The notes beneath the pieces were generated by a model, which ran no database searches, had not been told where the DNA came from, and saw only the letters and a list, made by a program, of their open reading frames with translations. DNA of 17,816 nucleotides from an uncultured Limnohabitans sp. Lineage in GTDB: Bacteria > Pseudomonadota > Gammaproteobacteria > Burkholderiales > Burkholderiaceae_C. Of the stretch, positions 3,730 through 17,779 are shown one piece after another; the stretch's first letter is position 1, and each line of letters begins with the position of its first letter. The translations under genes were made by a program, and so were the position numbers. The stretch spans positions 1-17,816 of the forward strand of contig NZ_CALBEX010000493.1 of the NCBI RefSeq assembly GCF_937889215.1, in the 5' to 3' direction.

Positions 3730-4101
<372 letters not shown>

Positions 4102-4123
4102 TGGATCAGAAAGAGAGTCAAAA

Positions 4124-5527
4124 ATGAAAAAACTGTTTGCATCATTGGCCTTGGGCCTGAGTTTGTGGGCCATGGGCAGCTTCGCGCTGGCTCAGACCAC
4201 CACACCCGCTGAAGCCCCTGCCGCTGTAGCGCAGGCTGCAGAAGCTGCACCTGCGGCTGCGCCCGCCGCTGAAGCCGCTGCCCCCGCTGTCAAAGAGACG
4301 GTCGACAAGGGCGACGTCACCTGGATGATGATTTCCACGGTGCTGGTCATCATGATGGTTATCCCCGGTCTGGCGCTGTTCTATGGCGGTTTGGTGCGCA
4401 GCAAGAACATGCTGTCGGTGCTGATGCAGGTCATGGTGGTGTTTTCGTTGATCTCGGTGCTGTGGGCCGTTTATGGTTACAGCCTCGCGTTTGGCGGCGA
4501 AGGCCTGATCTACGGCAACTTTGACAAGTTGTTCCTGAAAGGCGTCACGCCCGACTCATTGGCCGCGACCTTCACGCCCGGCGTGATGATCCCCGAGTTC
4601 ATCTTCATTGCCTTCCAGTGCACCTTCGCGGGCATCACTTGTGCGCTGATCGTCGGCTCTTTTGCCGAACGCATCAAGTTCTCAGCTGTGCTGTTGTTCT
4701 GCACCATCTGGTTCACCTTCAGCTACCTGCCGATTGCGCACATGGTTTGGGGTGGTGGTGGCTATCTGTTTGCGAAAGGTGCTTTGGACTTCGCTGGCGG
4801 TACCGTGGTGCACATCAACGCAGCCATGGCCGGTTTGGTGGGCGCTTATGTGATCGGCAAGCGCATTGGCTACGGCCGTGAAGCCATGGCCCCACACAGC
4901 CTGACTTTGACCATGGTCGGCGCCTCTTTGCTGTGGGTGGGCTGGTTTGGTTTCAACGCTGGCTCCAACCTGGAAGCCAACGGCGGCACAACCCTGGCGT
5001 TCATCAACACCTTGATGGCCACGGCGGCTGCGGTATTGGCTTGGTGTGTCGGTGAAACCCTGACCAAAGGCAAAGCTTCCATGCTGGGCGCTGCTTCGGG
5101 TGCTGTGGCAGGCTTGGTGGCCATCACCCCCGCTTGCGGTACGGTGGGCGTCATGGGTGCCATCGTCATCGGCCTCGTTTCAGGCTTCCTGTGCCTGTGG
5201 GGTGTGACCGGTCTGAAGAAGATGCTGGGCGCAGACGATTCCTTGGATGTGTTTGGAGTGCACGGCGTGGGCGGTATCGTCGGTGCTTTGCTGACCGGTG
5301 TGTTCTCGGCCGGTTCGCTCGGCGGCGTCAAGGGCGACGACTACAACATGATGAGCCAGTTGTTTGTCCAAGCCGAAGGCGTGGTCATCACCATGGTCTG
5401 GTCTGCTGTTGTGGCTTACGTGGCTTACAAAATTGTGGACATGTTGGTCGGTCTGCGTGTCACGGAAGAAGACGAGCGCGAAGGCTTGGACATCTCCTCA
5501 CACGGCGAGTCGGCATACCACGGCTGA
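4124..5527 (+). CDS. amtB: Ammonium transporter AmtB
   Basis: The 467-residue protein is an Amt/Rh-family ammonium channel of the inner membrane. Residues 1-23 form a signal peptide ending ALA, followed by an Ala/Pro/Glu-rich stretch to about residue 56, then about eleven membrane helices. Family motifs are clear: GLALFYGGLVRSKN (82-95), the pore region with HMVWGGGGYL (206-215), DFAGGTVVHINAAMAGL (222-238) and DVFGVHGVGGIVGALLTG (375-392). The twin pore histidines are His230 and His380, 150 residues apart as in E. coli AmtB (168 and 318). The start at 4124 is chosen because it begins the signal peptide; the open frame extends upstream to 4076, overlapping glnK. It is the last gene of the porin-glnK-amtB operon and is followed by a terminator. 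Trimeric AmtB should be gated by the neighbouring GlnK. Confidence 0.97.
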   Translation: MKKLFASLALGLSLWAMGSFALAQTTTPAEAPAAVAQAAEAAPAAAPAAEAAAPAVKETVDKGDVTWMMISTVLVIMMVIPGLALFYGGLVRSKNMLSVLMQVMVVFSLISVLWAVYGYSLAFGGEGLIYGNFDKLFLKGVTPDSLAATFTPGVMIPEFIFIAFQCTFAGITCALIVGSFAERIKFSAVLLFCTIWFTFSYLPIAHMVWGGGGYLFAKGALDFAGGTVVHINAAMAGLVGAYVIGKRIGYGREAMAPHSLTLTMVGASLLWVGWFGFNAGSNLEANGGTTLAFINTLMATAAAVLAWCVGETLTKGKASMLGAASGAVAGLVAITPACGTVGVMGAIVIGLVSGFLCLWGVTGLKKMLGADDSLDVFGVHGVGGIVGALLTGVFSAGSLGGVKGDDYNMMSQLFVQAEGVVITMVWSAVVAYVAYKIVDMLVGLRVTEEDEREGLDISSHGESAYHG

Positions 5528-5556
5528 TCCCCTTCACGGTAACTTTCATTGCAAGC

Positions 5557-5572
5557 GGTGGCGCAAGCCACC
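5557..5572 (+). other. Hairpin with GCAA tetraloop downstream of amtB
   Basis: GGTGGC and GCCACC pair perfectly around a GCAA (GNRA-type) tetraloop, 30 bp after the amtB stop codon. It has no T-run of its own. It may stabilise the 3' end of the mRNA ahead of the terminator that follows. Confidence 0.45.
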
Positions 5573-5579
5573 CATTCAC

Positions 5580-5615
5580 AACCCGCAGTGCGCAAGCCCT
5601 GCGGGTTGTTTCTTT
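5580..5615 (+). terminator. Rho-independent terminator of the porin-glnK-amtB operon
   Basis: A perfect 9-bp GC-rich stem (AACCCGCAG at 5580-5588 with CTGCGGGTT at 5599-5607) has a 10-nt loop and is followed at once by GTTTCTTT. Its place 52 bp after the amtB stop codon fits intrinsic termination of the nitrogen operon. Confidence 0.8.
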
Positions 5616-5619
5616 GGCG

Positions 5620-5634
5620 GGCCAAGTATTGGCC
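5620..5634. promoter_or_regulatory. 15-bp palindrome GGCCAA-GTA-TTGGCC, possible operator
   Basis: A perfect 6-bp inverted repeat with a 3-bp centre lies between the amtB terminator and the SMP-30-like gene, about 80 bp before that gene's start. It could be an operator for the downstream gene, but no regulator gene lies nearby and GC-rich 6-bp arms can arise by chance. Confidence 0.25.
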
Positions 5635-5713
5635 GGTTGGACCTGGGGTTTGATCAGGGTACGTGCCCGCTGATGCGTCGCTGGACGCCATGGCCTCGGG
5701 CACAATGGATTGC

Positions 5714-6664
5714 ATGCACGCACCTGCCTTGTTGACACCTCCTTGGACCGCCCTGACCATCGAGCCCGATGGCTTGGGCGAATCGCCTTTTTGGCATCCG
5801 CAGGAGGAGCGCCTGTATTGGGTGGACATCCCTGGTCGGCGCATCGCCCGCTTGGCGGTGCAGGGCCTGCAGGCCCAAGGGTCGGTCGACTATTGGCCCT
5901 TGGCGCAAGAGCCGGGTTGCATTGCGCCCGTGCAAGGTGGCGGCTTGGTCATGGCCCTGCGCGATGGCATTTATCTGGCAAGCGGGTGGGGTGGCCCCTT
6001 GCAGCTGCTGGCAGCAGCGCCGTATGACACGGGCAAGCAACGCTTCAACGACGGCAAATGCGACGCCCAAGGCCGCTTTTGGGCCGGCAGCCTGTACGAG
6101 CCCAAAGACCAGGCGCTGGGCGCGCTGTACATGCTGGACGGGCAAGGCCTGCACACCATGCTGGGTGGCGTGAAGGACGGTGTGGTGACGGCCAATGGCC
6201 TGGCCTGGTCACCCGATGGCCGCACGGCTTATTGGGCCGACACGGCCGCGCACCAGGTGCGCACCTTTGATTTTGAGCCGGCGACGGGCCAACTGTCAGC
6301 GGCTCGCGTGTTCCACCAAATGGCCCCCAAACCCGCAGGCTGGACATGGGGCAGTGACACCGCGTATGGCGGCCGCCCCGATGGCGCGGCGGTGGACAGC
6401 GAAGGCTGCTACTGGTCTGCCCAATACGAAGGCCAGCGCCTGCTGCGCTTGTCGCCTTCCGGCGATGTGTTGGCCGAAATGATCACGCCCGTGCCTTGCC
6501 CCACCATGCCCTGCTTTGGCGGGCCGGACCTGAAAACCCTGTTCATCACCACATCGCGCCAAGGTCGCGGCACGCCAGAGCTGGCGCAGTACCCGGGGGC
6601 GGGGTGTGTGTTTGCGACCCAGGTAGAGGTGGCGGGTTTGCCGGTGGATGCTTATCGGGCCTGA
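5714..6664 (+). CDS. SMP-30/gluconolactonase/LRE family hydrolase
   Basis: The 316-residue protein is an SMP-30/regucalcin-type six-bladed beta-propeller lactonase, probably cytoplasmic. Visible family motifs are LGESPFWHPQEERLYWVDIPG with the metal-ligand Glu23, FNDGKCDAQGRFWAG with Asn112, TANGLAWSPDG with Asn161, and RPDGAAVDSEGCYW with Asp223. These correspond to the Glu/Asn/Asn/Asp set that binds the divalent metal and substrate in regucalcin. Such enzymes open sugar lactones such as gluconolactone or arabinonolactone; the sugar here cannot be told. In-frame ATGs at 5690 and 5705 are alternative starts. I prefer 5714 because the family core begins soon after it and GGA sits just upstream, but the choice is uncertain. 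It lies 77 bp upstream of glcE in the same direction with no terminator between, so co-transcription is possible. Confidence 0.9.
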   Translation: MHAPALLTPPWTALTIEPDGLGESPFWHPQEERLYWVDIPGRRIARLAVQGLQAQGSVDYWPLAQEPGCIAPVQGGGLVMALRDGIYLASGWGGPLQLLAAAPYDTGKQRFNDGKCDAQGRFWAGSLYEPKDQALGALYMLDGQGLHTMLGGVKDGVVTANGLAWSPDGRTAYWADTAAHQVRTFDFEPATGQLSAARVFHQMAPKPAGWTWGSDTAYGGRPDGAAVDSEGCYWSAQYEGQRLLRLSPSGDVLAEMITPVPCPTMPCFGGPDLKTLFITTSRQGRGTPELAQYPGAGCVFATQVEVAGLPVDAYRA

Positions 6665-6741
6665 GCCGCTCAATTTACAACAAGACTTCCGTTCAAAAAA
6701 TTCACACGGTCCCTCAAGGCCGGGCGTTACCATCTTGACCC

Positions 6742-7887
6742 ATGGAAGCTCAACTCAACACCCTCGTCGATGCCGTGCGCCAAGCCGCTGCGGATGGCCG
6801 CACTTTGCGCTTGCGCGGTGGCGGCAGCAAAGATTTTTGGGGCCAGAGCCTCACGGGAGAGGTGCTGGACACCCGGGTTTACCGGGGCATCGTCAGTTAC
6901 GAGCCCAGTGAGCTGGTCGTCACGGTGCGCTGCGGCACGCCTTTGGCCGAACTGGAAGCTGCATTGGCCGAAAAAGGCCAGTGTTTGGCGTTTGAGCCGC
7001 CGCACTTTGGCGAGGTCGCCACTGTGGGCGGCATGGTTGCTGCGGGTCTGAGCGGCCCCGCCCGCGCCACCGCTGGCGCTGTGCGCGACTACGTGCTCGG
7101 GGCCCGCTTCATCAACGGTCTGGGCGAGCACCTGACCTTTGGCGGCCAGGTCATGAAAAACGTGGCCGGCTACGACGTGAGCCGATTGATGGCAGGCAGT
7201 TGGGGCACGCTGGGCCTGATCACCGAAGTCAGCCTGAAAGTCTTGCCCGTGGCCCCGGCCGAAGCGACTCTGATGATCGCGGGCCTGGCCCAAGGCTATG
7301 CACTCGACTTGCTGCACCGTTGGGGCGGCCAGCCCCTGCCCTTGAATGCCAGTGCTTGGGTGCGCGATACCACCGCCCAGCCTGCGGCGGACTATTTGTT
7401 TGTGCGCCTGCGCGGTGCGGTGGCGGCGGTGCAGTCGGCCACCGGCAAGATGGCTGCCGATGCCGTGGCTTTGGGCGCTCAAGTACAAGCCATGGACAAC
7501 CTCGAAGCCGCTCAAGATTGGCGCGCCAGCGCCGAGCAGTCGCTGGAGTTCTTTGATGCCCCCAACCCCGAAGCTTGCCTGTGGCGCCTGTCGGTGCCGC
7601 AAACCGCGCCGGTTTTGGATTTGCCCTACGCCACCTACATTGAATGGCAAGGTGCGCAGCGTTGGCTTTGGGCGCCGGCCACGGCGGCGGTGCCGCTGCG
7701 CGAGTTGGCGCAATCGTTGGGCGGCCATGCCACGCTGTTCCGTGCCAGCGCCACGCATGTCGAGCTGGACAAAGTCGTCGGTGTGAACACCCCGCTGGAT
7801 ACCGTGCAAGACCGCATCCAGCAACAACTGCAAAAACAGTTTGACCCGAAAGGCGTGTTCGCCACCGGTCGAATGCACCCCCTCTGA
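6742..7887 (+). CDS. glcE: Glycolate oxidase FAD-binding subunit GlcE
   Basis: The 381-residue protein is the smaller flavin subunit of the membrane-associated glycolate oxidase, which oxidises glycolate to glyoxylate and passes electrons to the respiratory chain. It has the PCMH-type FAD-binding fold: RLRGGGSKDFWG (23-34), GIVSYEPSELVVTVRCGTP (49-67), FEPPHFGEVATVGGMVAAGLSGPAR (84-108) and VMKNVAGYDVSRLMAGSWGTLG (around 137-158), all typical of GlcE. The length is slightly above the roughly 350-residue E. coli form. The ATG at 6742 has no strong ribosome binding site, and no better start lies downstream before the conserved region. glcF follows after 11 bp, so the two are co-translated. GlcD, the larger flavin subunit, is not in the window. 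Confidence 0.94.
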   Translation: MEAQLNTLVDAVRQAAADGRTLRLRGGGSKDFWGQSLTGEVLDTRVYRGIVSYEPSELVVTVRCGTPLAELEAALAEKGQCLAFEPPHFGEVATVGGMVAAGLSGPARATAGAVRDYVLGARFINGLGEHLTFGGQVMKNVAGYDVSRLMAGSWGTLGLITEVSLKVLPVAPAEATLMIAGLAQGYALDLLHRWGGQPLPLNASAWVRDTTAQPAADYLFVRLRGAVAAVQSATGKMAADAVALGAQVQAMDNLEAAQDWRASAEQSLEFFDAPNPEACLWRLSVPQTAPVLDLPYATYIEWQGAQRWLWAPATAAVPLRELAQSLGGHATLFRASATHVELDKVVGVNTPLDTVQDRIQQQLQKQFDPKGVFATGRMHPL

Positions 7888-7898
7888 GGCGACTTTTC

Positions 7899-9140
7899 AT
7901 GCAAACCAATCTCGCCCCCGAATACCAAAACACCTCCGATGGCATTGAGGCCGAAGCCATCTTGCGCAAGTGCGTGCACTGCGGCTTTTGTACGGCCACT
8001 TGCCCCACTTACCAACTGCTGGGCGACGAGCTCGACGGTCCGCGTGGCCGCATTTACCTGATGAAGCAGGTGCTGGAGGGCGAAACGCCCACCCGCAAAA
8101 CCCAGATGCACTTGGACCGTTGCCTGACCTGCCGCAATTGCGAAAGCACTTGCCCGAGCGGCGTGCAATACGGCCACTTGGTGGACATCGGCCGCAAGCT
8201 GGTGGACGCCAAAGTCGAGCGCCCCACAGGCGAAAAGTTGCTGCGCTGGGCGCTCAAAGAAGGCCTGCCGTCGCCCCTGTTTGCCCCCGCCATGAAGATG
8301 GGCCAACTGGTGCGCGGCCTGCTGCCGGGCAGCCTGAAAGCCAAAGTCCCCGCGCCGCAAGACGCCGGTGCCTGGCCCACCCGCACGCATGCCCGCAAGG
8401 TGCTGATGCTGGCCGGTTGCGTGCAGCCGAGCATGAGCCCCAACATCAACACCGCCACCGCCCGCGTGCTCGACGCCGCAGGCATCCAAACCGTGACCGC
8501 CCCCAAGGCCGGTTGCTGTGGCGCGCTCAAGTTCCACCTGAACGACCAGGGCGGTGGCAAAGACCACATGCGCGCCAACATCGACGCGTGGTGGCCGCTG
8601 GTCGAAAGCGGCGAAGTCGAAGCCATCGTCATGAACGCCTCCGGCTGCGGCGTCATGGTCAAGGACTACGGCCATGTGCTGAAAGACGATCCGCAGTACG
8701 CCGACAAAGCCGCCCGCATCGGCGCGCTGACCCGCGACCTGAGCGAGCTGCTGCCCGAGCTGGTGCCGCTGCTCAAAGACAAGCTCAAACCTGAGGCGCT
8801 GCAAGCCGCAGGCCTACAGGCCTACCACCCGCCTTGCACGCTGCAACACGGCCAGCAGCTCAAAGGCGGCGTAGAAAAGCATCTGGGCGATCTGGGCTTC
8901 AAGATCAAGGTCACGGCCAATGAATCGCACCTGTGCTGCGGCTCGGCGGGCACTTACAGCGTGCTCAACCCCGACTTGTCCAAGCAACTGCGCGATCGCA
9001 AGCTGGGCCACCTGAACGCGCTGCAACCGCAAGGCGTGATCAGCGCCAACATCGGCTGCATCACCCACCTGCAAAGCGGTAGCGGTCTGCCCGTGCGGCA
9101 TTGGGTGGAGTTGGTGGATGGGGCGCTGCTGGTCGGGTGA
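7899..9140 (+). CDS. glcF: Glycolate oxidase iron-sulfur subunit GlcF
   Basis: The 413-residue protein is the iron-sulfur subunit of glycolate oxidase. Two ferredoxin-type [4Fe-4S] motifs are complete: CVHCGFCTATCP (Cys25, 28, 31, 35) and CLTCRNCESTCP (Cys75, 78, 81, 85). Two cysteine-rich CCG domains follow (GCCGALKFH in the middle, LCCGSAGTYS near the C terminus), as in GlcF and heterodisulfide-reductase-like subunits. It should carry electrons from the GlcD/GlcE flavins toward quinone. The ATG at 7899 is preceded by GAGG overlapping the glcE stop codon. The next gene (XRE regulator) is 59 bp downstream and has its own promoter, so the glc unit ends here. Confidence 0.96.
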   Translation: MQTNLAPEYQNTSDGIEAEAILRKCVHCGFCTATCPTYQLLGDELDGPRGRIYLMKQVLEGETPTRKTQMHLDRCLTCRNCESTCPSGVQYGHLVDIGRKLVDAKVERPTGEKLLRWALKEGLPSPLFAPAMKMGQLVRGLLPGSLKAKVPAPQDAGAWPTRTHARKVLMLAGCVQPSMSPNINTATARVLDAAGIQTVTAPKAGCCGALKFHLNDQGGGKDHMRANIDAWWPLVESGEVEAIVMNASGCGVMVKDYGHVLKDDPQYADKAARIGALTRDLSELLPELVPLLKDKLKPEALQAAGLQAYHPPCTLQHGQQLKGGVEKHLGDLGFKIKVTANESHLCCGSAGTYSVLNPDLSKQLRDRKLGHLNALQPQGVISANIGCITHLQSGSGLPVRHWVELVDGALLVG

Positions 9141-9156
9141 AGGGCCTTGTGAGGTA

Positions 9157-9198
9157 AAACAAAATTAACATGATTTGATTTCATGGTAAATTTTGTTT
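9157..9198. promoter_or_regulatory. Nested 42-bp palindrome with embedded promoter before the XRE gene
   Basis: Outer arms AAACAAAATT (9157-9166) and AATTTTGTTT (9189-9198) are perfect inverted repeats. An inner pair CATGA (9169-9173) and TCATG (9181-9185) lies inside, with the centres offset by half a base. A possible promoter fits within: -35 TTAACA (9165-9170), 16-bp spacer, -10 TAAATT (9187-9192). The ATG at 9200 is eight bases after that -10, so the transcript could be leaderless. The site is AT-rich against its surroundings and is a natural operator for the XRE protein encoded next. Confidence 0.6.
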
Positions 9199-9199
9199 C

Positions 9200-9544
9200 A
9201 TGCCGAAGCCTGCTCACGCCACAGAAATTCTGCCTGCTGCGGTTGCCCGTGCCCTAAAAGACCTGGGCGAAAATTTAGCGCTCGCCCGCCAGCGCCGCAA
9301 AGAAAGCCAGCGTACCTGGGCCACTCGCCTGTCGGTCTCGGTGCCCACGCTCATCCGCATGGAAAAGGGCGACCCTTCGGTCGGCATGGGCGTCTACGCC
9401 ACGGCCCTCTGGCTCATGGGCCGGCATGCTGACTTGCCTGAGATGGCGGCACCTGCACAAGACCTGAATGCGCTGGAGCAAGACATTGAAGCCGTGCGCC
9501 AGCGCAGCAAGCGCTTGTCGCGCAAACCGGTGCAAGCCCTGTGA
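9200..9544 (+). CDS. XRE-family HTH regulator, HipB-like
   Basis: The 114-residue protein has a helix-turn-helix of the XRE/Cro type at about residues 24-75 (LGENLALARQRRKESQ, then SVSVPTLIRMEKGDPSVGMGVYATALW). The pattern of 'IRMEKGDPSVGMGVYATAL' is typical of HipB-like antitoxin regulators encoded before hipA kinases. The C-terminal third (about 88-114) is a charged helix rich in Arg and Lys. It probably binds the palindrome that ends two bases before its ATG and represses its own two-gene unit. There is no ribosome binding site; the next in-frame Met falls inside the HTH, so 9200 is the only sensible start. Its TGA stop overlaps the GTG start of the NUDIX gene (GTGA). No hipA follows. HTH family assignment is firm; the antitoxin role is only suggested. 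Confidence 0.85.
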   Translation: MPKPAHATEILPAAVARALKDLGENLALARQRRKESQRTWATRLSVSVPTLIRMEKGDPSVGMGVYATALWLMGRHADLPEMAAPAQDLNALEQDIEAVRQRSKRLSRKPVQAL

Positions 9545-10008
9545 TTTCATTTCAAGAGGGATCCCATCGTTTCCAATACCGTGTTGCGGCGATCGTGATG
9601 GATGCAGGCCAGCTTTTGTTGCATCGGGTCTTAGGTGATGCTTTTTGGACATTGCCCGGTGGTCGGGTGAATGTGGGTGAGTCAGCACAAGCAGCGCTTT
9701 GCCGGGAGTTTGAAGAGGAGCTTGGTACAAGCATTGAGTGTGGCCACCTCGCTTGTGTCGGAGAAAACTTCTTCCGTCACCACCAAGCAAGTCACCATGA
9801 AATTGGTTTGTATTTTTACGCCGGGCTAACCGCTGACGAAAGTTACAACGACAAGCGCATGACGCACAAAGGCGTAGAGACCAACAGGCAGCTTGAGTTC
9901 AAGTGGTTTGAGATCCAGCAGTTGCACCTTGTGGACATGCGACCCCAAGTGGTACGAGATGGCCTGGCCACAATGACATTGCCACACCACTTTGTGCAGC
10001 ACCTTTGA
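9541..10008 (+). CDS. NUDIX hydrolase, coupled to an XRE regulator
   Basis: The 155-residue protein has a complete Nudix box at 41-63 (GRVNVGE, seven residues, REFEEELGT), matching Gx5Ex7REUxEExGU, so it should hydrolyse a nucleoside diphosphate linked to another moiety with Mg2+. The surrounding fold is usual (RVAAIVMDAGQLLLHR before the box, EIGLYFYAGL after it). Substrate cannot be read; ADP-ribose, NADH, oxidised nucleotides or dinucleotide polyphosphates are all possible. The start is GTG at 9541, overlapping the upstream stop codon by one step (GTGA), so translation is probably coupled. Codon use is less GC-rich than in the neighbouring glc genes, with more T/A in third positions, which hints at separate acquisition. 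It converges with the AAA/DUF4143 gene that ends at 10107. Confidence 0.9.
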   Translation: MISFQEGSHRFQYRVAAIVMDAGQLLLHRVLGDAFWTLPGGRVNVGESAQAALCREFEEELGTSIECGHLACVGENFFRHHQASHHEIGLYFYAGLTADESYNDKRMTHKGVETNRQLEFKWFEIQQLHLVDMRPQVVRDGLATMTLPHHFVQHL

Positions 10009-10031
10009 GCGTTAAAGAGGCCTCCCTGTGA

Positions 10032-10053
10032 TTGCGAACGCACAATTTCGCAA
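10032..10053. other. Inverted repeat TTGCGAA-N8-TTCGCAA between convergent genes
   Basis: A perfect 7-bp inverted repeat lies 23 bp after the NUDIX stop codon and about 54 bp beyond the end of the convergent ATPase gene. No T-run follows on either strand, so it is a poor intrinsic terminator; it may only stabilise transcript ends. Confidence 0.3.
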
Positions 10054-10106
10054 GCCTACCAGTCCATTGAAGTGCACCGACTGCGTGCGTTTCATTTGTT
10101 ACCCCT

Positions 10107-11258
10107 TCAACCCGCTAGAACCCCTGCGATATCGCCCACAGAAATCACCTCAACCCCTTCCGCAAAAGGCCAGCGCTGCTGCACGGGGGCGACGATGTAG
10201 GTTTTTTCGGGTTGCACGTCTTGCAGGGATAGCCAGAACCCTTTGGTGAGCTTGGGCGCAATGCTGAACTTGATTTCGAAACCGATTTTTCGCTGCCCGG
10301 TTTCCACCACCACATCCAGTTCGGCGCCCGCCGCTGTTCTGTAAAACGACAGGCTGGCCCCAGTGGGCATGTGGGCGGCAATCTGGTCAATGACAAAGCC
10401 TTCCCAGGACGCACCTGTCATGGGGTGACCTTGCAGGTCGTCCGGATTGCTCAAGCCCAGAAGGCTGTGCAGTAGACCGCTGTCACGGACATAGACCTTG
10501 GGTGACTTGACCAAACGCTTGCCCAGGTTGGCGTGATAGGGCTCGAGTTTTCTGACCAGCAAGGCACCCACCATGTGATCGAGCCAGCGCGTGACTGTCG
10601 GTGCGCTCACGTCCAATGAGTTGGCAATGGCCGATGCATTGAACAACTGGCCATGCACATGCGCCAGCATGCGCCAAAAACGGCGCAGACTTTCGGCGTC
10701 CACGCGCAAGCCCAGAGCTGGCAAATCGGTGTGCAGCAGGTGGCGGATGAACGCATCACGCCAGGCCCAAGAGGCGTGTGAATCGACGGCGGTGTAGCTG
10801 GGCGGAAAGCCGCCGCGCACCCACAAGTCCTGCACGGTACTGAGGTCCGAGCCGACTTCTTTGACGAGGAGCGGGAACATGTCAATCAGACTCAGCCGTC
10901 CGGCCAAGGATTGGGATTGGCGCAGCAATTCAAACGAAGCCGAGCCCAGCAAGACGAAGCGCCCGGGGCGACGGATGCGGTCGATTTCACCGCGCAACAC
11001 CGAAAACAACTGCGGTGCATTTTGAACCTCGTCCAGGATCACCAGCCGGTCTGCTTGGGCTTGCAGAAACAGCGGGCCCTCGCCCAGGCGTGCCTGATCT
11101 TGTGGGGATTCCAGGTCCAGATAAATGGCATTTGGATGGGTGTCCAGCAGAGCACGGGCCAAGGTGGTTTTGCCAATCTGGCGCGGTCCCAAAATGGCAA
11201 CAGCTGGGCTCCATGTGAGGTGTGAGGCCAGTGTGCTTTGGGCGATGCGTTTGAACAT
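10107..11258 (-). CDS. AAA+ ATPase with DUF4143 domain (copy 1)
   Basis: The 383-residue protein belongs to the bacterial/archaeal AAA_14 plus DUF4143 ATPases. Walker A GPRQIGKTT is at 24-32, LVILDEVQ (Walker B) at 72-79, and the sensor-like LLGSAS at 103-108. A winged-helix-like segment (about 203-236, NASAIANSLDVSAPTVTRWLDHM) follows. The DUF4143 part has KVYVRDSGLLHSLLGL and a PD-(D/E)xK-like array: Asp315 in GAELDVVV and FEIK at 327-330. Family function is not established; the wHTH segment suggests DNA binding and the last part resembles a nuclease fold. The ATG at 11258 lies inside a 41-bp palindrome with an embedded promoter, so self-regulation and a leaderless mRNA are likely. Copy 2 (13237-14406) is clearly similar along the whole length (by eye over 40% identity). 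It lies 50 bp after the glxA-type gene. Confidence 0.92.
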   Translation of the reverse strand: MFKRIAQSTLASHLTWSPAVAILGPRQIGKTTLARALLDTHPNAIYLDLESPQDQARLGEGPLFLQAQADRLVILDEVQNAPQLFSVLRGEIDRIRRPGRFVLLGSASFELLRQSQSLAGRLSLIDMFPLLVKEVGSDLSTVQDLWVRGGFPPSYTAVDSHASWAWRDAFIRHLLHTDLPALGLRVDAESLRRFWRMLAHVHGQLFNASAIANSLDVSAPTVTRWLDHMVGALLVRKLEPYHANLGKRLVKSPKVYVRDSGLLHSLLGLSNPDDLQGHPMTGASWEGFVIDQIAAHMPTGASLSFYRTAAGAELDVVVETGQRKIGFEIKFSIAPKLTKGFWLSLQDVQPEKTYIVAPVQQRWPFAEGVEVISVGDIAGVLAG

Positions 11259-11297
11259 CCTTGTATTTTAAATATGCCATATTCAAAATACAAGGAT
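11257..11297 (-). promoter_or_regulatory. 41-bp near-perfect palindrome holding promoter and start codon of ATPase copy 1
   Basis: Arms ATCCTTGTATTTT (11257-11269) and AAAATACAAGGAT (11285-11297) are perfect over 13 bp. The inner bases AATATG/CATATT continue the symmetry about 11277, giving 19 paired positions of 20 (only 11270/11284 fail). On the minus strand a promoter fits inside: -35 TTGTAT (11288-11293), 17-bp spacer, -10 TAAAAT (11265-11270). Only six bases (ACAAGG) lie between the -10 and the ATG, so transcription should start at about the start codon and the mRNA would be leaderless. The AAGG touching the ATG is too close to be a normal Shine-Dalgarno site. Confidence 0.8.
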
Positions 11298-11308
11298 AAA
11301 TCGACTTT

Positions 11309-12250
11309 CTACAAGCATCTGGCCCAAACTCGCCTGAAATCCCGCGCAGAGCCAAAGCCGCAGGCCTCGGCCAGTTGTTCCTGGGTCAGTGACGGGTTGT
11401 GCGCCATCAACTCTTGCGCACGCGCCATGCGCAGTTGCTGCTGGTAGTCCAGCACGCTGATGCCCGTGTGTTGCATGAACAGACGCGACAAATGCCGGGG
11501 GCTCACGCAGGCCACCCCGGCCAGTTCGGCCAATGACCAGCGGCGGGCCGGGTCTTGGCTCAGGCCGTGTGCAAGGCCATCTTGCGCGCGGTGCACGGCC
11601 GGGTGCATGTGGTTGCGGTGCGCCAGCCAGGGTGACAGTAGCGGATCATTCGGACCCCGTCGGGTGTACATCACCAGCCTGCGTGCCACTTGGGCGGCCA
11701 GTGCAGCGCCGGCCACTTGTTCGACCATGTAGAGCGCCAAATCAATGCCTGTGGTGATGCCCGCGCTGGTCAGCACTCGCCCGGCATCCACAAAAATCTG
11801 GTCGGCTTGCACCTGTGCGGTGGGGGCCAGGGTCTGCAGGTCGGCGATCAGGCTGTGGTGGGTGGTGCAGCGCAGGCCGTCGAGTTGGCCTGCCATGGCC
11901 AGCAGCAAAGCACCCGAGCAAATGCTGGCCAAACGCGTGTCTGCTTGCGGTGCTGATTGCAACCAGCGCACCACTTGTTGAGCGGCGGGGGTGGCGTAGT
12001 CTTCGCGCTCATGGCTGTTGCCAGTGATCAGGACCAGGCTGTTGGGCGGCAGCTGGGTGGGCAGGGGTGTCAGCCCGGCCAGTTGGGTGCCCAGCGATGT
12101 GGGTACATGAGCCAGCGGCCCGCAGGTGTGCAATGTCAGCGGTGCGCCCATGTCGCGTGCCATGCGCAGCGCCTCGGCCGGGCCGGCGTAGTCGAGCAGC
12201 AGGACGCCTGGCGTGACAACCAGATAAACCGACAGACTCAAGTTTTCCAT
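11309..12250 (-). CDS. GlxA-family AraC-type transcriptional regulator, C terminus slightly short
   Basis: The 313-residue protein joins a DJ-1/PfpI-like N-terminal domain to an AraC-type C-terminal DNA-binding domain, the GlxA layout. The N-terminal part shows the nucleophile-elbow type CSGALLLAMAGQLDG with Cys111, then TTHH and TSAGITTGIDLALYMVE. The AraC domain (about 235-313) has the first HTH (SLAELAGVACVSPRHLSRLFMQHTG) and the second (SLTQEQLAEACGFGSARDFRRVW). It stops at WARCL, just before the usual GVSPxxYR ending, so perhaps 10-20 residues are missing. I start at the ATG at 12250; an in-frame TTG at 12298 is a weaker alternative. It is the third gene of an isochorismatase-DUF1272-regulator run, and GlxA-type regulators often sit beside such hydrolases. 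Ligand unknown. Confidence 0.9.
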   Translation of the reverse strand: MENLSLSVYLVVTPGVLLLDYAGPAEALRMARDMGAPLTLHTCGPLAHVPTSLGTQLAGLTPLPTQLPPNSLVLITGNSHEREDYATPAAQQVVRWLQSAPQADTRLASICSGALLLAMAGQLDGLRCTTHHSLIADLQTLAPTAQVQADQIFVDAGRVLTSAGITTGIDLALYMVEQVAGAALAAQVARRLVMYTRRGPNDPLLSPWLAHRNHMHPAVHRAQDGLAHGLSQDPARRWSLAELAGVACVSPRHLSRLFMQHTGISVLDYQQQLRMARAQELMAHNPSLTQEQLAEACGFGSARDFRRVWARCL

Positions 12251-12299
12251 GGCCAGCGCTTCAGCAGCTTGAATGGCATGCCTGGTTTTTGGCGGCAAG

Positions 12300-12545
12300 T
12301 CATTCGCACGCGCAGCCTTGCGATTTGAACACCCGTTCGGTCGAAGCCGGGTTGTTCAACAGCTTGGCCGCTGGGCGCACTGGGCGACGTACCAGTTCGC
12401 CACTGCAGTTGGGGCAGATGCCCTGCAAATGGTTGTCGGTGCACTCGGCGCAAAAGGTGCATTCAAAAGAGCAAATCCGCGCTTCCAGCGTCTCAGGCGG
12501 CAGGTCGCGGTTGCAGCATTCGCAGTTGGGGCGCAGTTGGAGCAT
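12300..12545 (-). CDS. DUF1272 zinc-ribbon-like small protein
   Basis: The 81-residue protein is rich in Cys (8, 10, 11, 25, 29, 32, 35, 44, 47, 78, 80) and has the DUF1272 hallmarks: MLQLRPNCECCNRDLPPE, ARICSFECTFCAEC, GICPNCSGELVRRPVRP and NNPASTERVF. The paired Cys motifs suggest two bound zinc ions. The family has no known function. The start at 12545 follows AGGA at proper spacing and matches the usual N terminus; the frame is open further upstream (to 12584) but that would overlap the isochorismatase gene. It begins 20 bp after the isochorismatase stop codon and ends 49 bp before the regulator start, so the three are probably one transcript. DUF1272 genes are often found near hydrolases and regulators of small-molecule metabolism, which does not settle the role. 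Confidence 0.9.
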   Translation of the reverse strand: MLQLRPNCECCNRDLPPETLEARICSFECTFCAECTDNHLQGICPNCSGELVRRPVRPAAKLLNNPASTERVFKSQGCACE

Positions 12546-12565
12546 GGGGTTTCCTGGTGGGCTAT

Positions 12566-13129
12566 TCAAAGGCTGGACAGACAAGTATCCATGTTCAGGA
12601 TGCGCGCAAAGCGGTCAGCCAAGACCAACTCGGTGCGCGTGGTGATGTCTTGGGCGCTGAAAGTCTGACCACTGCCTTTGTGCGTCATCGGGAAAGTGAG
12701 TGTGGCCTCGGACACAAAGTCCACCGCATAACCCATGTCCGAGCCCACACGGGCCGTGGTCTCGCAGCACTGCTCGGTGCGTATACCGCTGATGATGAGG
12801 CGCTGCACGCCTTGACTGCGCAGCCAGTTGTCGAGCCCGGTGTCGGTGAAGGCGTTGTGCACATGCTTGTCAAAGCGTGCGGCAGGCTCGCCTGGCAGCC
12901 AGTCCATGGCACGGATCAGGCCCGAGTCGGCACGAAAAGGCGCATCGTCGTCGATGTGAAAAATGTGTACCACCGGTACATCCGCTGCGCGACAACCTGC
13001 TTCCAGCTTCAGGAGCGCTTGCTGAAATGGCGCTTCATGGCCAGACGACCAATAAGGCATGTGCAAAAAAGATGGCTGCACATCGATGATGAGCAGAGCG
13101 GATTTGGGTGGCTTGGTGAGGCGGGTCAT
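12566..13129 (-). CDS. Isochorismatase-family cysteine hydrolase
   Basis: The 187-residue protein has the catalytic triad of the isochorismatase-like family: Asp16 in LLIIDVQ, Lys88 in RFDKHVHNAF and Cys121 in GIRTEQCCETTAR (the TxxC motif). Members are cytoplasmic amidases or hydrolases such as nicotinamidase, N-carbamoylsarcosine amidase and related enzymes; true isochorismatases of this size often have another residue set. The substrate cannot be named. The ATG at 13129 starts the family's N terminus and no closer Met fits. It is the first gene of the isochorismatase-DUF1272-GlxA-type run on the minus strand, 107 bp after the end of ATPase copy 2, with a possible terminator between. The neighbouring GlxA-type regulator may control it. 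Confidence 0.93.
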   Translation of the reverse strand: MTRLTKPPKSALLIIDVQPSFLHMPYWSSGHEAPFQQALLKLEAGCRAADVPVVHIFHIDDDAPFRADSGLIRAMDWLPGEPAARFDKHVHNAFTDTGLDNWLRSQGVQRLIISGIRTEQCCETTARVGSDMGYAVDFVSEATLTFPMTHKGSGQTFSAQDITTRTELVLADRFARILNMDTCLSSL

Positions 13130-13216
13130 GGTGCGCTGGCTCAGGCGTTGAACATGTCGTCATTGTGCGAATCAGACCGGGCGTTGCACAGGGCTGGGCA
13201 AGACCAGAAGGGGACG

Positions 13217-13244
13217 AAAAAGGACAGCCTTGCCGATCAAGCCT
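13217..13244 (-). terminator. Possible terminator of ATPase copy 2
   Basis: On the minus strand a 7-bp stem with one mismatch (AGGCTTG and CAAGGCT, 5-nt loop, 13226-13244) overlaps the gene's TGA. After four bases it is followed by TTTTT (13217-13221). The overlap with the stop codon and the mismatch make this a weak call. Confidence 0.35.
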
Positions 13245-14406
13245 CGCGTAGCACCTGCATCAACTCCACCAAGCCAATCGCGTGTGTGCCGTAACGCATC
13301 GGAAAGCGTTCGGTGCCGGGATAAACCACATAGCGCTGGTCGATGTTCAGGTCTGCGCAGGCGATGTCGAAGCCTTTGCTCAGTGTGGGCGCGGTGGATC
13401 GTTTGATTTCGATGGCCATCCACGGCTGACCGGCACGCTCAATCAGCAGGTCGATCTCGGCACCCGTATGGGTGCGGTAGCTGTAAGCCGTGCATTGCGG
13501 GTGGGCGGCGGCCATTAGGTTGTCGATGCAAAAGCCCTCAAAACTTGGGCCGCACACAGGGTGACCTGCCAGGTCATGCAAGCTGCCTAAGCCCAGCAAA
13601 GCGTGCACCAGCCCGCTGTCGCGCACATAGACCTTGGGCGCTTTGACCAGGCGTTTGCCCACATTGCCGCTCCAGGGCCGCAGGCGGCGCACCAGTTGCA
13701 GGTCTACCAGCAAGTCGATGTAGCGCTCTACTGCCGGGCTGCTCACGCCCAAGCCACTGGCCAAACGGCTTTGTTGCAGCAGAGCGCCTTGCTGGTGCGC
13801 CAACATGGTCCACAGACGGCCCACGGTTTCGGCTGGCAGGCGTGGCGCAAACATGGGCACGTCGCGTTGCAGGTAGCTGCGCACAAAGTCTTCGCGCCAG
13901 CGCAGGCTGGCCGCATCGCTGGCGGCCAGCAAGCTGTCTGGAAAACCGCCGCGCAGCCACAGCGTTTCCAGATCGGCGGCGGGCCATTCGAGCCCGTGAA
14001 CAGGGCCAATCTCCAGATAGGCCACACGCCCGGCCAGCGTTTCACTGCTTTGCTGCATCAAGTCCAGCGAGGCTGATCCCAGCAGCAAGAAATGGCCAAA
14101 GCGCTGGCCTGCACGGCGGCGCTCGTCGATGATGCCGCGCAGGACTTCAAACAGGCCCGGCATGCGGTGGATTTCATCGAGGATGACCAACTTGCCGCCT
14201 TGGGCGCGCAAAAATGCGTCGGCGTCTTGCAGCCGCAAACGGTCTGCCGGACGTTCCAGATCGAGGTAAGTTGAGCCAGCTGGCCAGGTGTCGGCCAGCG
14301 TGAGCGCCAAGGTGGTTTTGCCCACCTGACGCGGTCCGAGCAGCACCACCGCCGGGGCTTCGTGCAGGCGCTTAGACAGTGTGGTGAGGGTTTGACGGTC
14401 AATCAT
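13237..14406 (-). CDS. AAA+ ATPase with DUF4143 domain (copy 2)
   Basis: The 389-residue protein is built like copy 1. Walker A GPRQVGKTT is at 24-32 and LVILDEIH at 73-80. LLLGSAS comes next, then a winged-helix-like segment (about 209-243, QQSRLASGLGVSSPAVERYIDLL). The DUF4143 part has KVYVRDSGLVHALLGLG and a PD-(D/E)xK-like array, Asp319 in GAEIDLLI and IEIK at 332-335. No function is established for the family. The ATG at 14406 is chosen because AAGG adjoins it, the family N terminus (MIDRQ) begins there, and an embedded promoter points to it; the frame stays open upstream to 14697 without similarity. The two copies share orientation and long identical runs (for example GKRLVK, PKVYVRDSGL), so they are probably paralogues, either duplicated here or gained separately. 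They bracket the three-gene isochorismatase run. Confidence 0.92.
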   Translation of the reverse strand: MIDRQTLTTLSKRLHEAPAVVLLGPRQVGKTTLALTLADTWPAGSTYLDLERPADRLRLQDADAFLRAQGGKLVILDEIHRMPGLFEVLRGIIDERRRAGQRFGHFLLLGSASLDLMQQSSETLAGRVAYLEIGPVHGLEWPAADLETLWLRGGFPDSLLAASDAASLRWREDFVRSYLQRDVPMFAPRLPAETVGRLWTMLAHQQGALLQQSRLASGLGVSSPAVERYIDLLVDLQLVRRLRPWSGNVGKRLVKAPKVYVRDSGLVHALLGLGSLHDLAGHPVCGPSFEGFCIDNLMAAAHPQCTAYSYRTHTGAEIDLLIERAGQPWMAIEIKRSTAPTLSKGFDIACADLNIDQRYVVYPGTERFPMRYGTHAIGLVELMQVLREA

Positions 14407-14408
14407 CC

Positions 14409-14441
14409 TTGAAATTTTAACGTGTGGCGTTAGTATTTCAA
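14409..14441 (-). promoter_or_regulatory. 33-bp imperfect palindrome holding the promoter of ATPase copy 2
   Basis: Arms TTGAAATTTTAACG (14409-14422) and CGTTAGTATTTCAA (14428-14441) are inverted repeats with 12 of 14 positions paired and a 5-bp centre. On the minus strand the right arm gives -35 TTGAAA (14436-14441) and, after a 16-bp spacer, the left arm gives -10 TAAAAT (14414-14419). Seven bases separate the -10 from the ATG at 14406, so the transcript would begin at or beside the start codon. The layout repeats that of copy 1. Confidence 0.7.
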
Positions 14442-14608
14442 TTTTTAATGGATAAATCCTGGATCGCCGACCTGGATTGCCAGCCTCATAAGTCCTTGTC
14501 CCCCATCCGGCAAGGCCCGCGCCCGAGCACGCCAAAATGCCCACCCGGGTAGGATTGAACGCTGAGATGGCAGACCGTGCTTGCAAAGCGCAAACAAAGG
14601 ACAAGACG

Positions 14609-14995
14609 ATGGCGATACCTTGGTTGATGGCGCTCAAAGTGATTCCCTGAGGCGATGTGATCGAGCACGCGCCTTCGGTGCTCAAAGCCGCACGCAAGCT
14701 GATGGACCGCCAAGCCCCTCAGCCGCCCGACCAAGCAGGCACCCCCGTCACAACGACCCCGGTCAGTGCGGTGCCCAGCTTGGCTGAACTCAAAAACGCT
14801 TTGATTGCTGCGCAAGGCCAGATCGACCGCCAAGCACAGACTCAGCGCGAACTCACCGAAACCCTGGCCGACTTGGCCGAACAAAATGCCCGCTTGGTCA
14901 GTGCCGTGGAAATGCTGCGCCTGCGTACGCGGGTGTTGGTGTGGTGTGGCGTGGCGATGTTGGTTTGGTTGGTGGGGCTGACTTGGTGGGGCTGA
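14609..14995 (+). pseudogene. Small coiled-coil/membrane-anchored protein gene with an in-frame TGA
   Basis: An ATG at 14609 with AAGGA upstream starts MAIPWLMALKVIP, then TGA at 14648-14650, then the same frame continues as GDVIEHAPSVLKAARKLMDRQ to 14995. The phase is unbroken, so a single change, probably TGG (Trp) to TGA, interrupts a gene of about 128 codons. After the stop the protein has a Pro/Thr-rich hinge (about 22-40 of the remnant), a long heptad-like helix (LAELKNALIAAQGQ through VSAVEMLRLR) and one C-terminal membrane helix (VLVWCGVAMLVWLVGLTWWG). A GTG at 14657 with GAGG before it could restart translation and yield a 112-residue product. The family is one I associate with small Burkholderiales proteins but do not know by name; function unknown. 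Readthrough, a sequencing error or a true pseudogene are all possible. Confidence 0.6.
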
Positions 14996-15011
14996 ATCAA
15001 GAGGGTCGCAC

Positions 15012-15028
15012 TTGAGCACTTTGCTCAA
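15012..15028 (+). other. Hairpin TTGAGCA-CTT-TGCTCAA downstream of the coiled-coil gene
   Basis: A perfect 7-bp stem with a 3-nt loop lies 17 bp after the stop codon of the small coiled-coil gene. The following bases are T-rich but broken by G (TGGGTGTTTGATTGTT), so it is at best a weak terminator. Confidence 0.35.
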
Positions 15029-15162
15029 TGGGTGTTTGATTGTTGGGCTTATGAACGCTTGATGACTACTTCTGCACGCTGCTGACACCCCGTTGTCAGT
15101 ACCCCTCAGGCAAAGTCCTCCCCAGTGCACAGACGGTCTGAGCACATTCAGGGAAAAGACAA

Positions 15163-15540
15163 ATGCAAAAAGTGATCGATTGGTTTGAGATTCCGGTCAG
15201 CGATGTGCCGCGTGCGCAAGCGTTTTACGAAGCGGTGCTGCAAACCACCATGCAACGTGAAAGCTTTGCCGGGCCGGGCATGCAGATGGCGGTGTTTGCG
15301 GGGGAGGGCGATGCGACCAAGGGCGCGCTGATGTCGGGACACCCGGCTTTGCAGGTGGGTGCTTGTGGGGCGTTGGTGTATTTGCATGCGGGGGCATCGC
15401 TCGATTCGGCTTTGCAGCGTGTGGAGGATGCCGGTGGGCAGGTGCTCATGGGCAAGATGGCCTTGCCCGAGGGCCTGGGTTTCATGGCGCACATGCGCGA
15501 TGTGGATGGCAATCGGGTGGGCTTGCACGCTTACGCTTGA
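15163..15540 (+). CDS. VOC (glyoxalase/bleomycin-resistance) family protein
   Basis: The 125-residue protein has the vicinal oxygen chelate fold pattern. DWFEIPVSDVPRAQAFYEAVL begins the first beta-alpha-beta-beta-beta unit. GALVYLHAGASLDSALQRVEDAGGQVL begins the second, and the usual end DVDGNRVGLHAYA closes it. Family members bind a metal and act as lyases, dioxygenases or resistance proteins, or simply bind a ligand; this one is too general to assign a substrate. The ATG at 15163 has an AGGGAA site at good spacing. It is the first of four plus-strand genes; the WYL regulator gene follows after 39 bp and may control it. VOC genes next to YafY-type regulators are common in proteobacteria as far as I recall. 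Confidence 0.88.
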   Translation: MQKVIDWFEIPVSDVPRAQAFYEAVLQTTMQRESFAGPGMQMAVFAGEGDATKGALMSGHPALQVGACGALVYLHAGASLDSALQRVEDAGGQVLMGKMALPEGLGFMAHMRDVDGNRVGLHAYA

Positions 15541-15579
15541 AAATCAGCGTTTTACCCGTCCACCAGAACTGCACATCCC

Positions 15580-16284
15580 ATGCGCCGCGCTGACCGTCTA
15601 TTCCAGATTGTTCAACTCATCCGGGGCCGCCGCCTGACCACAGCCCGTTGGCTGGCGCAACGCTTGGAAGTGTCCGAGCGCACGGTATACCGCGATGTGT
15701 CCGACCTGCAATACCAAGGCGTGCCCATCGAGGGCGAGGCGGGGGTGGGCTACCGGCTGGGTGATGGCTTTGATCTGCCGCCGCTGATCTTCACCCCGCA
15801 AGAGGCGCAGGCCTTGGTGGTGATGACGCGGGTGGCGCAGCAGTGGCTGGACCCGGCGCTGGCCCGAGCGAGCGAATCGGCTTTGTCGCGGGTGCTCAGT
15901 GTCTTACCCGCAGGCCAGCGCCATGCGGCGCAGCACACGCCGGTGTATTCGCCGCCTTGGGGCTTGACCGCTGAGCAACAACCGCACTTGCAGCTGTGGC
16001 GCGAAGCCACACAGGGGCTGCACAAGTTGGCGCTGGTTTACAACGATGCACAAGCCCGCACCAGCGAGCGCACGGTGTGGCCCTTGGGCAGTTTTTTCTG
16101 GGGCGCGGTCTGGACACTGGTGGCTTGGTGCGAAATGCGTCAGGACTTTCGCAGTTTCCGACTCGACCGCATACAGTCCATTACAGTCTTGTCGCAGACC
16201 TTTCACTTGGTCGAGGGGCAACGCCTGATCGACTATTTGCGCCAACAAGGCGTGGACCCGCAGGCGTTGGCCGAGGGTCGATGA
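15580..16284 (+). CDS. YafY-type transcriptional regulator (HTH_11 + WYL)
   Basis: The 234-residue protein begins with a DeoR/HTH_11-type winged helix (RRADRLFQIVQLIRG, TTARWLAQRLEVSERTVYRDVSDLQ, then the wing GVPIEGEAGVGYRLG, about 1-62). A linker helix region follows, and a WYL domain (about 145-215) carries RTVWPLGSFFWGAVWTLVAWCEMRQDFRSFRLDRI. WYL domains sense ligands, in some cases nucleic-acid pieces or nucleotides. The YafY subgroup pattern WTLVAWCE..DFR.FRLDRI is clear. No strong ribosome binding site precedes the ATG at 15580, but it matches the family's usual MRRADRL start. It probably controls its flanking genes. The next gene begins 13 bp after its stop codon. Confidence 0.92.
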   Translation: MRRADRLFQIVQLIRGRRLTTARWLAQRLEVSERTVYRDVSDLQYQGVPIEGEAGVGYRLGDGFDLPPLIFTPQEAQALVVMTRVAQQWLDPALARASESALSRVLSVLPAGQRHAAQHTPVYSPPWGLTAEQQPHLQLWREATQGLHKLALVYNDAQARTSERTVWPLGSFFWGAVWTLVAWCEMRQDFRSFRLDRIQSITVLSQTFHLVEGQRLIDYLRQQGVDPQALAEGR

Positions 16285-16297
16285 AGAGGACGTTTTC

Positions 16298-16759
16298 ATG
16301 AAAATCGCAGAGATCGAAACGCGGGCTGTGTGGGGCCTGTCGGTGCGCACCCGAAACGCCGAAGAGATGCAGGCCGATACGGCGCGAATAGGCCAACTGT
16401 GGTCCGACTTTGCCGCGCAGATCGCGCCAAATCTGGCGAAGGGCGCACGGGTGTATGGCGTTTATCACGGCTATGAGTCGGATACCCAGGGGGCCTTTGA
16501 TGTGCTGGCGGGCTCCGATGCCTTGCCCCCCGCCGCAGGTGATTCACTCGCGCTCACCCGAATTGACATCGCCCCCGGGCCGCATTTGGTGTTTGACGCG
16601 CCTGGGGCCATGCCCCAAGCAGTGGTGGATGCCTGGACACGTGTTTGGCGCTACTTTGCCGACCCTTTGTGCCCGCACCAACGGACCTACAGCACAGACT
16701 TTGAGTCTTATCCACCTGATGGGCTGAAAGAAATTTTCATCGGTGTGCGGCCATCATGA
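16298..16759 (+). CDS. GyrI-like (AraC effector-binding) domain protein
   Basis: The 153-residue protein fits the stand-alone GyrI-like/effector-binding fold: an opening MKIAEIETRAVWGLSVRT strand, RIGQLWSDFAAQIAPNL helix, ARVYGVYHGYESDTQGAFDVLAGSD, and a late PQAVVDAWTRVWRYFADP helix with YSTDFESYPPDG. Such domains bind small, often cationic or drug-like ligands and some act as hydrolases; no DNA-binding part is present. The ATG at 16298 has AGAGGA eight bases upstream. It lies 13 bp after the YafY-type regulator and its stop overlaps the start of the EVE gene (ATGA), so the genes are translationally coupled. It may bind or degrade the ligand sensed by the WYL regulator, which is only inference. 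Confidence 0.85.
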   Translation: MKIAEIETRAVWGLSVRTRNAEEMQADTARIGQLWSDFAAQIAPNLAKGARVYGVYHGYESDTQGAFDVLAGSDALPPAAGDSLALTRIDIAPGPHLVFDAPGAMPQAVVDAWTRVWRYFADPLCPHQRTYSTDFESYPPDGLKEIFIGVRPS

Positions 16760-17226
16760 ACTACTGGATCGGTGTGGTCAGCCGCTCGCATGTGCTGCGC
16801 GGAGTTGCTGGTGGATTTGCGCAGATGAACCACGGCAAGCAGGCGCCGCTCAATCGCATGAAGGCGGGCGATGGCCTGATTTATTACTCGCCGCGTGAGT
16901 CATATCCCGACGGTGCGCCTTTGCAGGCGTTCACGGCCTTGGGGTTCATCCGATCGGGGGAGGTGTATGAATACGACATGACGCCCGACGGCGTGTCAGG
17001 CTTTGTGCCTTGGCGCATCGATGTGGACTACCAGCTTGCGCAACCGGTTCCCATCAAGCCCTTGATTGCACAGTTGGAATTCATCACCGACAAAACCCAT
17101 TGGGGGGCGGTGTTTCGATTTGGTCAGCTCAAGATCAGCGAGGCTGATTTCCGAAAAATCGCAGCGGAGATGGGGTGTGGCCACGCGCCTCAACAGGTTT
17201 CGCCGGTTCAGCCAGCGCTGTTTTGA
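16756..17226 (+). CDS. EVE domain-containing protein
   Basis: The 156-residue protein matches the EVE (PUA-like) fold in its MNYWIGVVSRSHV opening, the KAGDGLIYYSPRESYPDGAPLQAFTALGFIRSGEVYEYD stretch, and the FVPWRIDVDY and ITDKTHWGAVFRFGQLKISEADFRKIAAEM parts. EVE domains bind modified bases in nucleic acid in several systems and also occur in stand-alone proteins of unknown role such as this size class. The ATG overlaps the preceding stop (ATGA, 16756-16759). Its own TGA abuts the stop codon of the convergent glutathione peroxidase gene with no base between. Specific target not known. Confidence 0.9.
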   Translation: MNYWIGVVSRSHVLRGVAGGFAQMNHGKQAPLNRMKAGDGLIYYSPRESYPDGAPLQAFTALGFIRSGEVYEYDMTPDGVSGFVPWRIDVDYQLAQPVPIKPLIAQLEFITDKTHWGAVFRFGQLKISEADFRKIAAEMGCGHAPQQVSPVQPALF

Positions 17227-17709: not shown

Positions 17710-17779
17710 GGGGTTCGTTTTGTTGGGTGTGGACAGAGGGACATCATGCCAGTGACAGCCCCCGGGTGGGCAGCGCGGT

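Follow-up and report, generated by a model that had tools for sequence, protein, structure and literature searches.

Here, we report a 41-bp near-perfect palindrome around the promoter and start codon of a gene for an AAA_14-DUF4143 ATPase (gene 1; 383 aa, minus strand, 10107..11258, start codon 11258-11256), which is very probably the operator of an autoregulated one-gene cassette whose ATPase represses itself and travels with its operator. The gene lies in a 17,816-nucleotide stretch of DNA from an uncultured Limnohabitans sp. (contig NZ_CALBEX010000493.1, positions 1 to 17,816; hereafter, the window). The ATPase would bind its own promoter through a winged helix within the DUF4143 region, with one recognition helix per half-site, and would block RNA polymerase, since the site (37-41 bp) spans the -35 and -10 elements and extends to the start codon. 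The mRNA would start at or beside the ATG. A free promoter would mean expression and enough protein would mean shut-off, so that a copy in a naive cell would be expressed first and then self-silenced. The computed supports are a fixed-register palindrome, promoter asymmetry, co-variation of protein and site, conserved ATPase and nuclease residues, and one instance of the gene plus its operator at another site; from these we infer binding, repression (not activation), the oligomeric state, the leaderless 5' end, and the releasing signal (ATP state or engagement of foreign DNA).

The palindrome (11257..11297; minus strand, ATCCTTGTATTTTGAATATG-g-CATATTTAAAATACAAGGATG, whose terminal ATG starts the ATPase) has two 20-nt arms (11257-11276 and 11278-11297), 95% complementary and 1 nt apart, a dyad at 11277, and a 33-bp TTG...CAA frame at 11261-11293. 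Its near-perfect symmetry, claimed in the original prediction, was confirmed: 19 of 20 positions pair, vs a best of 13 to 16 in 200 dinucleotide shuffles, scored over the whole window for the best palindrome with 20-nt arms and a 1-nt centre. It is the longest and most complementary of three inverted repeats in the window (arms of at least 14 nt, at most 60 nt apart). An inverted repeat with 14-nt arms (ACAACCCGCAGTGC / GCCCTGCGGGTTGT, 5578-5609), terminator-like by eye, lies just past an amtB-like gene. When the half-site pattern was searched in the same genome with up to two mismatches, both arms at the gene 1 locus matched with none, and three other places matched with two mismatches each.

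A promoter inside the palindrome had been predicted, and all of its parts were found. On the minus strand, TTGTAT (-35; 11288..11293, in the ATG-distal arm) is followed by a 17-bp spacer, TAAAAT (-10; 11265..11270, in the ATG-proximal arm, starting at -12), and 6 nt to the ATG. Of 115 DUF4143 genes with a palindrome centred 19 bp before the ATG (-19), 78 had a better -10 match in the ATG-proximal arm than in its mirror image, 34 an equal one, and 3 a worse one; the best -10 hexamer starts at -14 to -12 (8 to 6 nt from the ATG). A -10 at -13 or -12 was found in 49 of 84 genes (best full promoter score of at least 8) vs 7 of 71 controls. Tetramers resembling a Shine-Dalgarno (SD) motif at -16 to -5 were found in 0/115 genes vs 90/318 controls, an absence partly forced by the AT-rich arms and with AAGG at -4 to -1 lying outside the scanned stretch. 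The symmetry is thus broken at the promoter, initiation at or near the ATG is likely, and, because the -10 sits in the ATG-proximal arm, 6 to 8 nt from the ATG, the transcript of gene 1 is probably leaderless, with its 5' end at or beside the ATG. The leaderless start that had been proposed is thus supported, as far as sequence can tell, by the position of the -10 and the lack of SD-like motifs.

The refuting outcome named with the prediction, absence of a palindrome before homologous genes, was checked on 188 distinct DUF4143-type genes, and the result was the opposite. The genes came from genomes of the genus and the phylum, from GTDB genomes (the top 80 of a larger number of loci), and from viral contigs. 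The DUF4143 domain occurs in 39 of 60 genus genomes (up to 10 copies) and in 33 of 200 phylum genomes. Gene starts were set by distance to Walker A (ATG preferred) without using the palindrome, and 318 control open reading frames (ORFs) were drawn from the same loci. Left out of the 188 were 14 entries (12 loci), duplicates, L001-L005, L007, and L008; 20 entries were left out of a second set of 82 new genes. The palindrome was present (at least 11 of 18 pairs with the dyad at -19) in 86/188 genes vs 1/318 control ORFs at the same position. Mean pairing at -19 was 0.51 (controls, 0.26), and every other centre from -45 to -8 gave 0.34 or less. With an inverted-repeat score of at least 9 between -60 and +12, 87/188 genes stood against 9/318 controls, and the centre was exactly -19 in 51 of the 87. 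Offset 5 from the dyad pairs in 91% of 94 genes, which were selected for at least 9/18 pairs, with all four bases occurring. The second set added 29/82, giving 115/270 genes in all; 44 of the 79 GTDB genes examined were in the -19 class. Palindromes at -19 extend beyond Pseudomonadota, to Bacteroidota (Spirosoma L136, Cellulophaga L127), Obscuribacterales L123, Acidobacteriota L161, Caldilineaceae L163, Verrucomicrobia L176, and viral contigs such as L188; these names are record labels, and several are of metagenome bins.

Two further DUF4143 genes were found in the genome. Gene 2 (13237..14406, minus strand), 47% identical to gene 1, matched Pfam PF13173 and PF13635 above the cut-offs (85.4 and 152.3 bits) and is preceded by a putative operator, TTGAAATACTAACG-ccaca-CGTTAAAATTTCAA (14409..14441, minus strand; found by eye), in which 12/14 arm positions pair around a dyad at 14425 (-19). 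The sequence differs from that of gene 1; the 33-bp TTG...CAA frame, the dyad at -19, and the CAAGG-ATG junction are common to both. The gene finder, faced with a long open frame upstream, missed gene 2, and the 188 genes counted do not include it. The third copy (L006) carries yet another sequence, ATACAGATTGAAG-7 nt-CTTCAATTTGTAT (33 bp), 11 nt upstream of its ATG. All three proteins matched the PDC-S01 profiles of PADLOC (gene 1, E 3.3e-83; best, 8e-107). For a Nudix-like gene adjoining gene 1 (9541-10008), a search of the other 59 genomes of the genus gave no match at the DNA level, so that it may have come with or beside the cassette.

The gene 1 product comprises an AAA/STAND-like core, a winged helix, and probably a PD-(D/E)XK nuclease. 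It matched Pfam PF13173 (AAA_14) and PF13635 (DUF4143) with 89 and 161.1 bits (cut-offs, 27 and 28.1), while NCBIfam and PHROGs profile searches gave only weak, unrelated matches. The winged-helix-like segment that had been claimed was located inside the DUF4143 region, where residues 202-237 gave a MarR match under Pfam's cut-off and the AF2 model (mean pLDDT, 95.5) has a helix at residues 219-231; AF2 secondary structure and co-variation mark this as the putative recognition helix (10566..10604, minus strand). Conserved residues point to the probable nuclease core, E286...D315...E328-x-K330 (10269..10403, minus strand), in which E286, E328, and K330 are invariant and D315 is conserved in at least 90% of 57 sequences; among known PD-(D/E)XK nucleases, McrC, Can2, Card1, and Hjc were set beside it as the closest. 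Sequence searches gave no homologue of solved structure (one match at E 0.17). The STAND-type arrangement of AAA core plus winged helix is present in the protein, which we compared with archaeal 2qen and 2fna and with Apaf-1/CED-4/NLR proteins, all of which we take to be STAND-type ATPases. The winged helix of NLR-type proteins is known to serve autoinhibition, not operator reading; that of gene 1 co-varies with DNA, which suggests that a STAND-type ATPase can use its winged helix as a true operator reader.

This co-variation was found by scanning the protein in 86 genes for segments that diverge in step with the operator, with overall protein divergence removed. The best of 376 eight-residue windows was 218-225 (SAPTVTRW) in the recognition helix (r 0.45, or 0.48 when ranked). 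The helix-turn-helix (HTH) contained the top segment in 5/8 combinations of window size and statistic, and rank-based leaders elsewhere were 90-101 (12 residues), 298-313 (16 residues), and 298-321 and 92-115 (24 residues). By corrected mutual information, the six top residue-base scores were all in the HTH (residue 220 with offset 5, z 12.7; 220 with 6, 12.2; 218 with 5, 6.5; 219 with 7, 6.1; 209 with 8, 5.5; and 224 with 4, 5.3), and the seventh (66 with 5, 4.8) lay outside it. The dinucleotide at dyad offsets 6,5 follows residue 220 in a manner approaching a code: AA accompanies P and V, GG accompanies K, TC accompanies Q, and AT accompanies I, with T mixed. For most genes this applies to both arms, and it extends over more than one phylum. 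In the training table, 29/34 P genes had AA in both arms, 21/23 K genes had GG, and 9/10 Q genes had TC. Gene 1 has AA at these offsets in both arms (11271..11272 and, on the minus strand, 11282..11283), as does gene 2, which carries P at the residue-220 position; AA is the least surprising dinucleotide in AT-rich sites.

The rule was fixed before being applied to the 82 new genes. The palindrome was present in 29 of these, and 26 of the 29 carried a residue that the rule covers. Agreement was found in 44/52 half-sites (K, 22/24; P, 12/16; V, 6/6; Q, 4/6), in genes 0.48 to 0.85 identical to the nearest training gene and therefore not unrelated to the training set. The exceptions were four P operators with AT or TA in one arm, and a K operator (L256) and a Q operator (L300) with GA in both. 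On a tree of the 115 genes with the HTH columns left out, residue 220 underwent about 20 changes by parsimony. In phylogenetically disjoint pairs, drawn from training and new genes together, dinucleotide mismatch was 0.69 where residue 220 differed (n = 16) vs 0.11 where it was the same (n = 33; p 1.8e-6), and the outer half-site showed no difference (0.25 vs 0.23; p 0.91). The specificity of the protein thus appears to match a palindromic operator overlapping its own promoter, a trait not universal in the family, and the idea that the ATPase is its own repressor gains support from this residue-to-base co-variation.

Palindromes of this type are concentrated at DUF4143 genes. A search of 399 genomes of the order gave 21 places with the operator pattern CCTTGNANNT-N17-ANNTNCAAGG, spread over 18 genomes, and 4 places with a reversed control pattern (once in each of four genomes). 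Of the 21, 14 were directly upstream of the start of a DUF4143-type gene and 2 beside remnants; at L330, L331, L337, L341, and L344, no DUF4143 relative was found beside the site (tblastn, E 1e-3). Eleven of the 14 were read (L339 runs into the end of its contig, and L335 is N-masked after the N-terminal ATPase part, so that its DUF4143 domain was not seen), and three (G328:C45, G618:C195, and G323:C10) were matched by coordinates to the known gene set. A wider regulon was rejected, with 16/21 places at DUF4143 genes or remnants. At L347 (G348:C53) and L340 (G323:C1), the operator is followed by an internally deleted or partial DUF4143 gene, which suggests decay of the cassette.

Gene 1 and its operator were also found together at another site in L327 (homology over 10107-11301, from the stop codon to just past the palindrome), between glcF-like and XRE-like genes there and Nudix-like and AraC-like genes here (neighbours named by eye). 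Neither DUF4143 gene is present at the syntenic sites of L326 (G037), where an intact gene-2-type palindrome is kept (reverse-complement position ~6183) and tblastn found no DUF4143 relative in 11 kb. Operator and gene are hence separable, and the lone operator could have been left behind by gene loss or be an orphan site. Relatives were found in 370 plasmid records (149 conjugative, 50 mobilizable), and an integrase or recombinase gene adjoins 4 of the 12 plasmid copies inspected (L306, L308, L309, and L311). The differing position of gene 1 with its operator and the plasmid relatives fit a cassette that carries its own switch.

Some DUF4143 genes have an inverted repeat at a distance other than -19. 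With any centre from -60 to -8 allowed, 13/18 pairs were reached in 152 of the 270 genes (12/318 controls) and 12/18 pairs in 200/270 (33/318 controls), and an inverted repeat of 12/18 pairs in that range was absent in 58/270. Direct repeats (11/13) were found in 13 of these 58 vs 12/318 controls, with a period of 22-23 in 9/13 vs 2 controls. Two or three direct repeats with this 22-23 bp period stand in place of the inverted repeat upstream of L033, L034, L064, L083, L201, L349, and L353, and most direct-repeat genes encode 408-418 aa. Among six copies kept out of the counts (L348-L353), Ruminococcus albus L349 and Rhizobium etli L353 have the same kind of direct repeat by eye, L350 has a 33-bp palindrome at -26, and a clear -19 palindrome was not seen in the Thermus plasmid copies L348 and L352, in Emticicia L351, or in L349 and L353.

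Other explanations of the palindrome were weighed against self-repression. A 20-bp stem beside the ATG could, if transcribed, mask the start, and the palindrome might then be an RNA hairpin in the 5' leader (an attenuator or a structure sequestering the start codon) and not a DNA operator. However, the -10 lies within the palindrome, 6 to 8 nt from the ATG, so the palindrome would mostly not be transcribed; mismatches in the 115 palindromes show little G-U preference (111 of G-U type, 95 of A-C type, 287 other); and co-variation with a winged helix would be unexpected. On promoter position and mismatch types, the hairpin was set aside as hardly credible. Binding by a regulator of the host instead of the ATPase, be it a global factor or an XRE-like or AraC-like neighbour, is very improbable: XRE-like (9200-9544) and AraC-like (11309-12298) ORFs do lie near gene 1, as judged by eye, but the same kind of site precedes homologues in unrelated hosts, on plasmids, and with other neighbours, DUF4143 genes or remnants account for most pattern places in the order (16/21), and operator variation tracks the recognition helix of the ATPase itself.

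Two further readings keep the ATPase at the site. What the palindrome mainly serves, as a substrate or anchoring site, could be the nuclease or cassette mobility, with regulation as a by-product, as the different position of gene 1 and its operator in L327, the palindrome kept without either gene in L326, and the plasmid copies beside a recombinase or integrase might indicate; an anchor would not need the conserved promoter elements and fixed distance to the ATG, and we consider this improbable. The ATPase might also read the operator and activate, or act both ways by concentration, in the manner of C proteins of restriction-modification systems, which, according to the part of the source available, have palindromic boxes in their own promoter, are often leaderless, and activate at low and repress at high levels (PMC4824078). 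The single dyad at -19 covers the -35 and -10, where binding should block polymerase, and activation is accordingly judged unlikely. Repression by the ATPase is most likely, and self-repression through the operator is the reading carried forward here.

A wider reading, rather doubtful as a whole, casts DUF4143/PDC-S01 as a mobile element, immune or selfish, that consists of one gene and is self-insulated, its NLR-like winged helix having turned into a reader of specific DNA sequences whose base code can be deciphered. In this reading, the operator would be a parking site that holds bound protein inactive; foreign DNA or a changed nucleotide state would pull the protein off, arming the nuclease and opening the promoter at once, and the different operators of paralogues would let each cassette count its own copies alone. 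The results predict the DNA site of a PDC-S01 protein and supply a base-level rule, which a single amino-acid substitution should break, and the operator offers a simple reporter for finding the releasing signal; what DUF4143 ATPases sense therefore becomes directly testable.

In the open-licence papers searched, no report of this operator was seen. The family had been described as widespread and without agreed function; widespread it is, and the second part needs amending, since PADLOC lists it as the phage-defence candidate PDC-S01 (PMC12988326). In the part of that source available, PDC-S01, whose profiles the three proteins here match, is an ATPase fused to PD-(D/E)XK, ranks fourth in frequency among the defences of all prokaryotes, and is a computational candidate, with experimental validation pending for most PDCs (PMC12988326); its description there gives nothing on regulation. 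Anti-phage or anti-plasmid defence, resting on PADLOC's listing, is the leading guess for function. In Thermus thermophilus, according to the available part of another study, RNA of the DUF4143 gene TT_P0211 rose 6.6-fold with plasmid in the Argonaute-positive strain only (PMC4406477); this response is suggestive only, the locus tag not being tied to a gene of the present set. RptR, the repressor of a phage-defence island, resembles the proposed role of gene 1, as far as its description was available, in that it represses itself, reads DNA at a conserved binding site, and is linked to defence genes; it differs in being a small helical protein that reads 6-bp palindromes within direct repeats and controls a whole island (PMC12255303).

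By analogy, the C-protein circuit is the nearest working analogue of the switch proposed for gene 1. C proteins are, as a rule, a small separate regulator chain of another family, whereas gene 1 encodes a single 383-aa AAA-winged helix-nuclease chain, with reader, ATPase, and probable nuclease domain in one polypeptide and with a specificity that can be decoded. In the available part of the source, C.PvuII and C.Csp231I resemble gene 1 in the palindromic box in the regulator's own promoter, the leaderless transcript, and nuclease control, and a C-REase fusion is mentioned among type II restriction-modification systems; C.Csp231I has two inverted repeats and an activating phase, whereas gene 1 has one dyad (PMC4824078).
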